Shown here: positions 28,596-38,310 of the stretch, in pieces | Layout: each line of letters opens with the position of its first letter | Numbering within the stretch: the stretch's first letter is position 1 | From: Vibrio sp. 10N.286.49.B1 | GTDB lineage: Bacteria; Pseudomonadota; Gammaproteobacteria; Enterobacterales; Vibrionaceae | Direction: 5' to 3' | Assembly (NCBI RefSeq): GCF_002873335.1 | Contig: NZ_MCUW01000033.1 | Span: 62,311-105,106 of the forward strand | Length of the DNA: 42,796 bases | The notes under the pieces: model-generated | Told to the model about the DNA's origin: nothing | What the model saw: only the letters and a program-made list of their open reading frames with translations | The model's database searches: none | Program-made: the position numbers and the translations under genes

Positions 28596-28707
28596 ATCAA
28601 TAATAAAGTTATTTAAAGAGAAAATATTCGGTGTGTTAATAAAACTATAATGAAAATAAACTACAAAATTAGTTTCATTTTTAGATCAGTTGTTGTACAT
28701 TGGTTGC

Positions 28708-28812
28708 GTAGGGTACAGAGGTAAGATGTTCTATCTTTCAGACCTTTTGTTTCACGTTATTGGATTAGGCTGATTCAGCCGCCCCAGTCAGTATTTGACT
28801 GGGGCGTTTTTT
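28708..28812 (+). ncRNA. spf: Spot 42 RNA, carbon catabolite small RNA
   Basis: The sequence begins GTAGGGTACAGAGGTAAGAT and continues nearly base for base with E. coli Spot 42, including the unpaired GACCTTTT region and the terminator GCCCCAGTCAGTATTTGACTGGGGC with six T. About 105 bases long, it lies between polA and engB as in Enterobacteria and Vibrios. Spot 42 with Hfq represses mRNAs of catabolic genes and is itself repressed by CRP-cAMP in E. coli. A -10 TACATT (28696-28701) and -35 TTTCAT (28673-28678), 17 bases apart, fit the start at 28708. Confidence 0.98.
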
Positions 28813-29040
28813 CTTGTGCGAAAGAAAAATAATCCCATTATCTTTCATGCCTTCACCTTGTTTTACTATTCATCTCCTTTTACGAACTCAGTTATTCCTG
28901 TAATTAAACAACCTTCACACTTTTAATAATTTCAGATTGAAATCAAGTTACGTGATTTTTTAGTGGTTAAATTATTAACGTATTGAATATGTTGAAATAA
29001 GTTTTTATTTTTTGAGTTTGATAAAGGTAGGATGTAAAGA
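28813..29040. other. Region between spf and the second small RNA
   Basis: About 230 AT-rich bases with no gene. The right end should carry the promoter of the next RNA: TTGAGT (29012-29017) followed after 17 bases by TAAAGA is one weak option. Confidence 0.4.
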
Positions 29041-31490: not shown

Positions 31491-32303
31491 ATGAGAACGA
31501 CCAAGCAACCCGAAAGTAAACATCTGAATGTTCCGGCAAAATTACTGAGGCCATTATGGTTCAGAAGTCGTGAAAGCTTGTTAGACGATGGGTTAGTCTA
31601 CGATCCCATCGCGTCATACGCGTGTCGTCGTTGTCATCTTGCATCGGATTGCCTATCTGGGAATATTGATCAAAGCCAGCTATTACATGCAACATTAACG
31701 CAGGTTTGCGATTTGCACGTTAAGCGCTTCTTAGAAGTAAACCCTAATGGGTGGGTGATAAACGTTGGTGCTGGATTAGATACGCGTTTTTACCGACTCG
31801 ACAACGGCCGTTGCCGATGGATTGAGATTGATACCAATGAGCATTTAGTTTGGCGTCAGCGCTTATTCTACCGAAGTGAGCGCTACCAACTTATGTGCGG
31901 CTCTATTGATGATATGACATGGCTGCAAGAATTACCAAATGAGCAATCTCAGCCAATATTAGTGGTATGTGAACAGGCGTTACTTGATCGTAGAGAGAAT
32001 CGAGTTGCTCATTTTATTCAATCTATCGGTTGTCACTTTCAGCATGCACAAGCATGTGTCGTGTTAGCGGGTGACCATAGCCAGAGCCGTTTAGGTATGA
32101 AGATGGGCTGTGAAGATTATGCTCATGGCTTTAAAAATGCGACTCAGTCGCTACTGAATTGGCTACCCTGGATCCATCGCGCAATCTTAGTTTCACCCAT
32201 CGACCAGCAATGTCTGCGCTGGAGTCGCTGGCAAAGAATATTGGCTAAGTTACCCATTTATAAAAATCGGCTTACGCCTAATGTGGTCAATATTCATTGG
32301 TAA
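31491..32303 (+). CDS. Class I SAM methyltransferase of the leucine carboxyl methyltransferase (LCM) type
   Basis: A 270-residue protein with the LCM-family SAM-binding motif INVGAGLDTRFYRL (about 89-102) followed by WIEIDTNEHLVWRQRLF, where the acidic residue contacts the SAM ribose, and a mid-protein VVCEQALL block. The family is related to protein-phosphatase leucine carboxyl methyltransferase and to polyketide-synthesis PpmP-like enzymes; the substrate here is unknown. GGAGGG lies about 8 bases before the ATG. It lies behind a Fur box and a palindrome, and 120 bases before the MATE transporter gene in the same direction. The pair may act together, but that is inference. Confidence 0.8.
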   Translation: MRTTKQPESKHLNVPAKLLRPLWFRSRESLLDDGLVYDPIASYACRRCHLASDCLSGNIDQSQLLHATLTQVCDLHVKRFLEVNPNGWVINVGAGLDTRFYRLDNGRCRWIEIDTNEHLVWRQRLFYRSERYQLMCGSIDDMTWLQELPNEQSQPILVVCEQALLDRRENRVAHFIQSIGCHFQHAQACVVLAGDHSQSRLGMKMGCEDYAHGFKNATQSLLNWLPWIHRAILVSPIDQQCLRWSRWQRILAKLPIYKNRLTPNVVNIHW

Positions 32304-32350
32304 ACGTGAAAGGAATACAAATGTTCGCACTGTTTACAACGTGCGTTTAG

Positions 32351-32414
32351 CGATACCATAAACACTTCTATTGTGTTTATTCACCATGATTGCTCATAAC
32401 ATGGTGAGGTATCG
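32351..32414 (+). promoter_or_regulatory. Perfect three-way-junction RNA element in the leader of the MATE gene
   Basis: Three stems abut with no unpaired base at the junction. P1 is CGATACC (32351-32357) with GGTATCG (32408-32414). P2 is ATAAACAC (32358-32365) with GTGTTTAT (32373-32380), loop TTCTATT. P3 is TCACCATG (32381-32388) with CATGGTGA (32400-32407), 11-base loop ATTGCTCATAA. All 23 pairs are Watson-Crick. The last base of P1 is the first base of the GAGG ribosome site (32414-32417) of the GTG at 32423, so folding could limit translation. I know no named RNA family with this layout. A DNA cruciform bound by protein is the alternative. Confidence 0.7.
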
Positions 32415-32422
32415 AGGTCGAC

Positions 32423-33769
32423 GTGCCGTCCAATCCCTTCCATTCTTTGTTTCATCTTGACTTGCATCGCAGGGTACTCTTACTTGCTATACCTATGGTG
32501 CTGTCTAATATCACAGTCCCATTACTCGGCTTGGTGGACGCGGCGGTCATTGGGCATCTCGAACACGCTTGGTATCTAGGCGGTGTTGCTTTGGGCAGTA
32601 CGATGATCAGCGTGACATTCTGGTTGCTTGGTTTTCTTCGAATGTCCACGACAGGGTTAACTGCGCAAGCGTTTGGGGGTCAAGACCAGCGTCAACTCGC
32701 CTTAGTTTTTGTGCAAGGTAGCGTGATGGCACTAGGTTTTGCCGCCACTTTCTTGCTGTTTCATTCTTGGATGTCGGATGCTGTTTTTTCATTAAGTAGC
32801 GCGAGTGAACAGGTTAAGCATTATGGGGCTCAATACTTTGTGATTCGAGCCTGGAGTGCGCCTGCCGCATTGATGAACTTTGTGCTTTTAGGTTGGTTAC
32901 TTGGAACGCAAAACGCTAAAGCGCCAATGTGGATGGTACTGATTACGAATGTGGTCAATATTGTGCTCGATGTCATTTTTGTGATTGGTTTTGAATGGCA
33001 AGTGGAGGGGGCGGCATTGGCCTCAGTGATTGCCGATTATAGTGGCTGTCTATTTGGCTTATGGTGTGTTCGCAAGACATGGAAAGATCAAAACCTACCA
33101 ACGTTGGTTTCTTTATATACTGAAGCTACGCAGGACTTAGCGCGATTTGTACGGCTCAACCGAGATATATTTTTACGTTCACTATGCTTGCAAGCGACGT
33201 TCAGTTTCATGACCTTCCAAGGCGCTGCGTTTGGCGATGATATCGTGGCGGCTAATGCGGTGTTAATGAGTTTTCTCATGATTATTTCTTATGGCATGGA
33301 TGGGTTCGCCTATGCGATGGAAGCGATGGTCGGCAAAGCGATGGGGGCGCGGAATCGCGGTGAATTGGTTGAGTCGTTAATCGGTACCTTTTTCTGGAGT
33401 TTAGTGATCTGTTGCGTGTTAACCCTGCTCTTTTGGCTTTTCGGTGCAAGCTTGATTGCGATGATCACCTCCATTGATACCGTTCAGTTTCAGGCCCAAC
33501 ATTATCTCCCTTGGCTAATAGCGATGCCGCTTGTGTCGATGTGGTGTTTTCTATTTGATGGCATATTTATCGGAGCAACCAAAGGGCGAGAGATGCGTAA
33601 TAGTATGTTTATCGCAACCTGCTGCTTCTTTGCTATGTTTGCGCTTTTTTCAGGCTGGGGCAACCACGCACTATGGTTCTCAATGCTCAGTTTTATGTTG
33701 ATGAGAGGCGTAGGGTTAGCCATGATCTTTATACTACAGTGGCGTAAAGGCGAGTTTCTCGAGGCTTAG
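32423..33769 (+). CDS. dinF: MATE-family multidrug efflux transporter, DinF type
   Basis: A 448-residue integral membrane protein with 12 predicted helices and the MATE signature regions (VLLLAIPMVLSNITVPLLGLVDAAVIGHL, then FLRMSTTGLTAQAFGG and the repeat in the second half, DGFAYAMEAMVGKAMGARNRGELV). MATE proteins export cationic compounds using Na+ or H+ gradients. The start is GTG at 32423 with GAGG five bases upstream. The symbol reflects the DinF subgroup; the E. coli lexA-dinF context is not present and no LexA box is seen. Expression may be controlled by the structured leader at 32351-32414. Confidence 0.9.
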   Translation: MPSNPFHSLFHLDLHRRVLLLAIPMVLSNITVPLLGLVDAAVIGHLEHAWYLGGVALGSTMISVTFWLLGFLRMSTTGLTAQAFGGQDQRQLALVFVQGSVMALGFAATFLLFHSWMSDAVFSLSSASEQVKHYGAQYFVIRAWSAPAALMNFVLLGWLLGTQNAKAPMWMVLITNVVNIVLDVIFVIGFEWQVEGAALASVIADYSGCLFGLWCVRKTWKDQNLPTLVSLYTEATQDLARFVRLNRDIFLRSLCLQATFSFMTFQGAAFGDDIVAANAVLMSFLMIISYGMDGFAYAMEAMVGKAMGARNRGELVESLIGTFFWSLVICCVLTLLFWLFGASLIAMITSIDTVQFQAQHYLPWLIAMPLVSMWCFLFDGIFIGATKGREMRNSMFIATCCFFAMFALFSGWGNHALWFSMLSFMLMRGVGLAMIFILQWRKGEFLEA

Positions 33770-37891: not shown

Positions 37892-38061
37892 GATAATTGC
37901 CTATCGTCGGTAATGTGTATTGATGAAGAGGGCAGATTTTATTCAATCTCCGGTCGTTGTCCAGTTTTTCCCATGCTTGTTTACCAATAAAACAGGATAT
38001 TTATAGGTTAGTTCAATCTGATATAGACAAGTAACCATTCTGTGAATACCATTTCGACCTA
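37892..38061. promoter_or_regulatory. Divergent promoter region of trmA and btuB
   Basis: About 170 bases. For the btuB transcript, TTGTTT (37978-37983) followed after 17 bases by TTTATA is a possible promoter. Nothing else clear was seen. Confidence 0.35.
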
Positions 38062-38245
38062 GCTGGTGTGAGATGTTAAATGGAACCTCACGTAATAGGG
38101 AATCTGGTGTAAATCCAGAACTGACGCGCAGCGGTAAGAGAGAACGAAAACTCATTAGACACTGTACATAGTTACGGGAAGTCGAGTTGTAGATAAGATG
38201 GTTAGTCTTGTGCTCTCAAGTCCGAATACCTGCCAGCAACCAGGT
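38062..38245 (+). ncRNA. Cobalamin riboswitch (B12 element) of btuB
   Basis: The leader has the B12-riboswitch core: GGGAATCTGGTGTAAATCC (about 38098-38116), AACTGACGCGCAGCGGTAA shortly after and the B12 box-like AAGTCCGAATACCTGCCAGC (38219-38238). The 5' paired segment is GGTGTGAG with CCTCACG near 38065 and 38086. Adenosylcobalamin binding would shut off btuB, probably by hiding its ribosome site. Ends are approximate. About 65 bases separate it from the btuB ATG. Confidence 0.95.
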
Positions 38246-38310
38246 CGTTAACTCAACAAATAATAATGTGAGCGGCTCGGAAGGACTTACGCGATTAGGA
38301 TAATATAAAA

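Follow-up and report, generated by a model that had tools for sequence, protein, structure and literature searches.

In the mobile elements IS10 and IS50, the transposase gene is protected from outside transcription by a fold that read-through RNA forms over its ribosome site, and in Escherichia coli pyrC and pyrD the transcription start site lies within the left arm of a hairpin over the Shine-Dalgarno sequence. The gene that concerns us here, dinF of Vibrio, is a resident gene rather than a mobile element, and unlike those of pyrC and pyrD its leaders are without a conserved initiation motif. A hairpin in Bacillus subtilis has been proposed to block translation of sigG from RNA of the upstream operon promoter PspoIIG, and by the same account it cannot form in RNA from sigG's own promoter (PMC5942855). 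As sigG is portrayed there, dinF shares with it a GTG start and a hairpin that would block read-through messages; however, sigG encodes a Bacillus sporulation sigma factor, its hairpin has 20+ bp, and its own mRNA carries a second, small hairpin that was tested by mutation (PMC5942855). The phage T4 genes I-TevI, I-TevII, I-TevIII, segB, soc, and e are described as having a ribosome site concealed by a stable structure, which for I-TevI lies on the early and middle RNA; the position of the late promoter leaves the sequence required for the structure out of the late RNA (PMC2988022). The T4 genes follow the phage's temporal program as outlined in that source, whereas dinF is a bacterial chromosomal efflux gene. 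As far as these descriptions go, the device that we propose for dinF would fit beside the one proposed for sigG and the one described for T4 I-TevI. Direct RNA sequencing of V. parahaemolyticus, as summarized in PMC8577284, indicates that mainly singly transcribed genes are often read through into the next gene; the word dinF is absent from the main text of that paper. The HelD dual-promoter system for rifampicin does not fit, because its promoters are described as convergent (PMC12802891). Among the open-access articles listed by full-text searches, we found no usable published start sites or leader control for Vibrio dinF.

The window (the whole stretch of DNA analyzed, 42,796 nucleotides from Vibrio sp. 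10N.286.49.B1) carries dinF downstream of a methyltransferase-like gene (Table 1) whose match to TIGR00027 falls below the family cut-off. No terminator-like site was found in window positions 32150 to 32500, and the methyltransferase-like gene is the likely source of read-through RNA into dinF. Of the 87 distinct loci whose flank is long enough to judge, 83 have a like neighbor on the same strand, 35 to 335 bases away; a different upstream gene occurs in the other 4 (L043, L061, L081, and L095). We found dinF matches in 187 of 227 Vibrio genomes (1e-100), the closest orthologs of the window's gene being those of V. methylphosphonaticus and V. qingdaonensis (85 to 86% identity), and collected 150 leaders, 103 of them distinct across the last 60 bases. 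Because GTG stands at the homologous place in 97 of these 103, the GTG start at 32423 is supported; the remainder comprise 3 TTG starts (L090, L102, and L106), 2 ATG starts (L076 and L092), and 1 start misplaced by the script. The 24 dinF leaders from other genera of the family have 9 GTG, 14 ATG, and 1 TTG start. In L090 and L102 the -10 region has CAA and the start is TTG, the usual combination being CAC and GTG; this may reflect start-codon pairing or shared ancestry. Elsewhere in the window, a cobalamin riboswitch (38047 to 38251) and Spot 42 RNA (28698 to 28813) score above the Rfam gathering threshold.

Table 1. Features of the dinF leader in the window and paired arms in other dinF leaders
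Feature	Positions	Strand	Sequence (left/right for arms)	Basis and remarks
Upstream SAM-dependent methyltransferase-like gene	31491..32303	+		ORF; Pfam LCM 1.4e-6, 28.8 bits (cut-off 22.3)
P1 left strand	32351..32357	+	CGATACC	Sequence and RNAfold; overlaps -10
Inferred -10 hexamer	32354..32359	+	TACCAT	Conservation; lies across P1 and P2; conserved G at 32352
P2 left strand	32358..32365	+	ATAAACAC	Sequence and RNAfold
Predicted transcription start	32366	+		7th base after hexamer; inferred from -10 position
P2 right strand	32373..32380	+	GTGTTTAT	Sequence and RNAfold
P3 left strand	32381..32388	+	TCACCATG	Sequence and RNAfold
P3 right strand	32400..32407	+	CATGGTGA	Sequence and RNAfold
P1 right strand	32408..32414	+	GGTATCG	Sequence and RNAfold; final base is first base of Shine-Dalgarno
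Shine-Dalgarno	32414..32417	+	GAGG	Sequence; GAGG, GAGT, GGAG, or similar in most relatives
dinF, MATE family efflux transporter	32423..33769	+		GTG start; NCBIfam NF007690 431 bits (cut-off 409); Pfam MatE
Arms, L071			TTGTCACTC/GAGTGACAA	
Arms, L067			TTGCCACTC/GAGTGGCAA	
Arms, L093			TTTGCACTCTTC/GATGAGTGCAAA	
Arms, L019			ACTATCACCTCT/AGAGGTGATCGT	
Arms, L139			GTTAACCTCATCAG/CTGATGAGGTTAAC	
Arms, L141			CAGTTACACTCAGT/ACTGAGTGTAACTG	
Arms, L119			TCACTAAGTT/AACTTAGTGA	Loop holds most of -10

A sequence-only reading of this DNA had described three stems directly upstream of dinF, and all three are present where it placed them: P1, P2, and P3 comprise 23 Watson-Crick pairs with 0 junction bases, the loops are TTCTATT and ATTGCTCATAA, and P1 does end on the first G of the GAGG (32414). 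RNAfold returns the same stems in a stretch of 111 bases (-33.4 kcal/mol, z of -4.06, none of 200 shuffles reaching this), together with an outer helix over the start codon (5' GTGCGTT with GACGTGC) that is lost when a slightly different stretch is folded. The argument that such a fold is unlikely by chance was borne out: 24 million bases generated by a first-order Markov model of the window's composition held only 4 perfect zero-junction three-way junctions of at least 15 pairs, the largest having 18, whereas the window holds one of 23 pairs and none other of at least 18. In the 179 collected loci (610 kb), the only junctions of at least 16 pairs were three copies of the window's locus. The perfect 23-pair junction is not a chance product. 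When 91 leader bases were searched against the genome to which the window belongs (E value of 0.001), they matched only their own locus, and a dispersed repeat or mobile element was rejected on this ground. Just upstream lies an open reading frame of nine codons (ATG to TAG, 32321 to 32350) that has a good Shine-Dalgarno sequence, shares its frame with dinF, and stops on the base preceding P1; it was set aside because the ATG is absent in L035 and the peptide is different in L041.

A TANNNT hexamer lies upstream of dinF in 102 of the 103 distinct Vibrio leaders, a conservation that is partly built in since the hexamer was picked by pattern. The sequences are TACACT in 58 leaders, TAAACT in 21, TACTAT in 8, TAACCT and TACCAT in 4 each, TAGACT and TACAAT in 3 each, and GACAAT in one; the distance from the hexamer's first base to the start codon is 29 to 37 bases in 89 core leaders and 61 to 71 in 13 long ones, which include the window. 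Two observations are independent of the picking: a G two bases 5' of the hexamer is kept in most leaders, both core (87 of 89) and long (11 of 13), and TACACT is the commonest hexamer of the region without any selection (58 of 103 leaders). Of 25 leaders from the family's other genera, 9 likewise carry TACACT, where shuffles lead one to expect 0.66; as only 2 of these 9 are strongly masked (at most 3 of 60 shuffles with as high an opening cost, as detailed below), TACACT appears to be kept for a reason of its own. The unpicked G and the recurrence of TACACT in other, mostly unmasked genera are why we take the conserved hexamer to be the putative -10 element of a dinF promoter; this assignment rests on conservation because a scan of the window leader found no consensus sigma-70 promoter. 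The predicted start would be the first base of the P2 loop, beyond the left strands of P1 and P2, and the first two bases of the P2 left strand form the end of the -10 while its remainder precedes the start. With the -10 and predicted start falling on these left strands, RNA from dinF's own promoter would hold only P3.

Hairpins in many Vibrio species join the -10 and start-site region to the Shine-Dalgarno sequence, with arms that vary while their complementarity is kept (Table 1). The left arm, which pairs the ribosome site, begins just after the hexamer or sometimes over or before it: it is mostly upstream of the -10 in L119 and L121, over it in L098, L139, and L141, and mostly after it in L044. 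The right arm, by contrast, is at the ribosome site in every case, an overlap that the arm search required. The inverted repeats of 14 bp in L139 and L141 (perfect) and L098 (near-perfect) contain the whole -10 and reach or abut the start codon. We examined covariation in one fixed register, chosen after viewing the stems, in 38 leaders with 32 distinct arm pairs. That register held 148 Watson-Crick cells versus 127.7 (sd 6.1) when partners were shuffled (0 of 2,000 reaching this count) and 69 to 97 in slid registers, and all four Watson-Crick types occurred at one pair; the arms of the dinF leader covary across Vibrio. Mismatches as first counted were G-T in 50 cases versus A-C in 8 (76 distinct arm pairs), and 18 versus 7 outside the Shine-Dalgarno sequence and start codon (65 arm pairs), but this asymmetry was rejected as proof of RNA because at the fixed register the counts (G-T 57, A-C 14) are near the shuffled expectation (55.7 and 18.2). 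Partners of the Shine-Dalgarno sequence peak 10 to 13 bases past the first -10 base and lie mostly upstream of the predicted start in 86 of 101 leaders (43 if that start is shifted by -2, 100 if by +2). A left arm that the own-promoter RNA either lacks or carries only at its extreme 5' end fits a masking of read-through RNA.

The cost of opening the interval from the Shine-Dalgarno sequence to the start codon was computed for read-through RNA, for own-promoter RNA beginning at the 7th base after the -10, and for RNA with its upstream sequence shuffled. Means across 102 leaders were 12.1, 4.7, and 7.7 kcal/mol, respectively, where the own-promoter RNA is shorter, so that 4.7 against 7.7 is not a like-for-like comparison. 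The read-through cost exceeded the shuffle mean in 94 of 102 leaders, and at most 3 of 60 shuffles were as high in 60 of 102, both counts coming from related species and therefore not independent. After clustering at 75% identity, 40 of 45 clusters were above the shuffle mean (mean difference of 3.25), and the mean shuffle fraction was at most 0.05 in 16 of 45. Masking of this kind is not general to genes, because only 10 of 33 window genes, dinF included, exceeded the shuffle mean (mean difference of -0.02), and in just 3 genes did no more than 3 of 60 shuffles reach the observed cost. Since the comparison of own-promoter RNA with shuffles is not like for like, better evidence comes from the dependence on the 5' end: in the 89 core leaders the cost drops as the 5' end crosses the -10 and start, from a mean of 8.6 kcal/mol at offset 6 to 4.6 at offset 12, with a plateau at offsets 11 to 13. 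Across the genus, then, the ribosome site is paired in RNA folded as it would come from an upstream promoter. Masking is not exclusive to Vibrio, and the tendency is weaker in the other genera of the family, where 15 of 24 leaders were above the shuffle mean and 5 of 24 had at most 3 of 60 shuffles as high. Hairpins beside TACACT were also seen in L155, L161, and L167 from these genera, such as ACACTGA with TCAGTGT just 5' of the GAGG in L155; among the three, only L161 is strongly masked in the sense defined above.

The Shine-Dalgarno sequence itself is not unusually masked in the window, where opening the same interval costs 6.1 against 7.8 in shuffles, with 48 of 60 shuffles as high (51 and 53 in repeats). 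Wider footprints, picked after this measure had failed in the window, gave 12.2 in read-through RNA, 6.3 in own RNA, and 9.2 in shuffles for -14 to +3 (3 of 60 as high), and 20.9, 14.2, and 13.7 for -20 to +3 (0 of 60); the nearest relatives, L035 and L041, fail this wider test. Nor does the window's cost depend much on the 5' end, being nearly constant from offset 3 on (-9 and -14 footprints). Retention of the pairs in homologous leaders, on which the sequence-only reading had staked its case, held in part: P1 is largely kept (6 of 7 pairs in L035 and 5 of 7 in L041) and P3 is kept (8 of 8 and 7 of 8, two of them as G-U), but P2 is interrupted by gaps and mismatches in both relatives, with ungapped cells pairing 5 of 6 and 5 of 7, and is missing from the minimum-energy fold of each. 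A different pairing is seen in L041, where ATACCA and ACCTC join TGGTGT and GAGGT over the Shine-Dalgarno sequence and start. Strong masking is confined to L037 and L076 among the 13 long leaders; in L037 (the same sequence as L012), CCCCAA after the -10 joins TTGGGG at the Shine-Dalgarno sequence around an 11-bp hairpin, and opening costs 14.5 in the read-through RNA but 2.7 in the own-promoter RNA. Judged by comparison of these leaders, the three-way junction as such is a lineage feature and not a conserved class of RNA. What recurs is the link between the -10 and start zone and the ribosome zone, which is found also in some leaders where the distance is doubled, and this suggests that the window's fold may be a local version of a genus-wide arrangement in which the promoter is embedded in a fold.

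The sequence-only reading had gone further and proposed a switch of translation whose loops are contact sites for ligand, RNA, or protein. The stems do exist next to the ribosome site, and a link to translation is the reading with the most support, but a ligand riboswitch is unsupported: the loops are not kept in either of the two nearest relatives, and Rfam gave no family match at the dinF leader up to an E value of 5. A three-way-junction cis-regulatory RNA that is transcribed whole, senses a ligand, RNA, or protein, and switches translation would account for so perfect and improbable a fold next to a ribosome site; with P2 degenerate in the relatives, left strands that overlap the conserved -10, and sequence comparison pointing to neither a conserved aptamer core nor a known riboswitch family, we regard it as highly improbable. 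The confinement of the perfect P2 and perfect junction to the window lineage, together with the unmasked Shine-Dalgarno sequence there, is what one would expect if the junction had no regulatory role, P3 stabilizing the mRNA and P1 and P2 having been perfected by mutation (template switching in inverted repeats). This seems quite improbable to us given that P1 is largely kept in two relatives and that in some related species these two zones are joined by pairs of different sequence.

A regulator-bound DNA dyad, named earlier as the main alternative, remains a live rival, albeit a somewhat unlikely one. A dimeric regulator would bind the dyad over the -10 and start and repress or activate dinF, the RNA pairing being a by-product; the dyads do cover the core promoter, as the perfect repeats of L139 and L141 illustrate, and mismatch counts so near the shuffled ones mean that the fixed-register test does not demonstrate strand-specific selection on RNA. 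The arms differ between species, however, with little conserved beyond the hexamer and the Shine-Dalgarno partners; the left arm shifts relative to the -10 while the right arm stays fixed (as the search required), and the leaders appear to hold no conserved operator sequence at fixed spacing. Start-site choice of the pyrC and pyrD type, in which formation of the Shine-Dalgarno hairpin hinges on slight changes in the 5' end and translation follows nucleotide pools or polymerase state, would agree with the fall in cost between offsets 6 and 12 in the core leaders and with Shine-Dalgarno partners that straddle the predicted start by about 2 bases each way. Against this, initiation sequences are poorly conserved (0.05 to 0.68 bits at offsets 6 to 11) and the window's cost barely changes with the 5' end, and we think such a switch unlikely.

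We favor, at a probability of about one half, the reading that the dinF promoter is embedded in an RNA fold that masks the ribosome site on read-through RNA. From the computed fold, conserved hexamer, covarying arms, and energy difference we infer a start site, read-through transcription, and an effect on translation that would combine as follows. When transcription enters from the methyltransferase gene, the -10 and start region of the resulting RNA would pair with the ribosome-binding region and mask it, whereas RNA from dinF's own promoter would start past most of the left strand, lack the mask, and be translated; read-through messages would thus probably be hard to translate and the own-promoter message not. 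The left strand would pair the Shine-Dalgarno sequence directly in many Vibrio species. In the window lineage, with a leader about 35 bases longer, P1 would clamp the bases just 5' of the Shine-Dalgarno sequence with P2 and P3 stacked within it, and the own-promoter mRNA would keep P3 alone. A bolder version, which we consider doubtful, holds that across Vibrio dinF is read only from own-promoter RNA with the exact start base setting translation, that the choice of start (own promoter versus read-through, or shifts of a few bases) senses polymerase or nucleotide state on behalf of a drug or metabolite pump, and that the window lineage rebuilt this switch as a perfect three-way junction.

If the promoter-in-fold reading is right, a mechanism known mainly from phage genes and one sporulation gene would serve a resident efflux gene and span much of a large bacterial genus, and a co-directional gene would, with no terminator in between, be kept silent on its neighbor's message. 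Some 100 natural variants whose arms differ in sequence and position would then offer a comparative set for the effect of the start site on translation.
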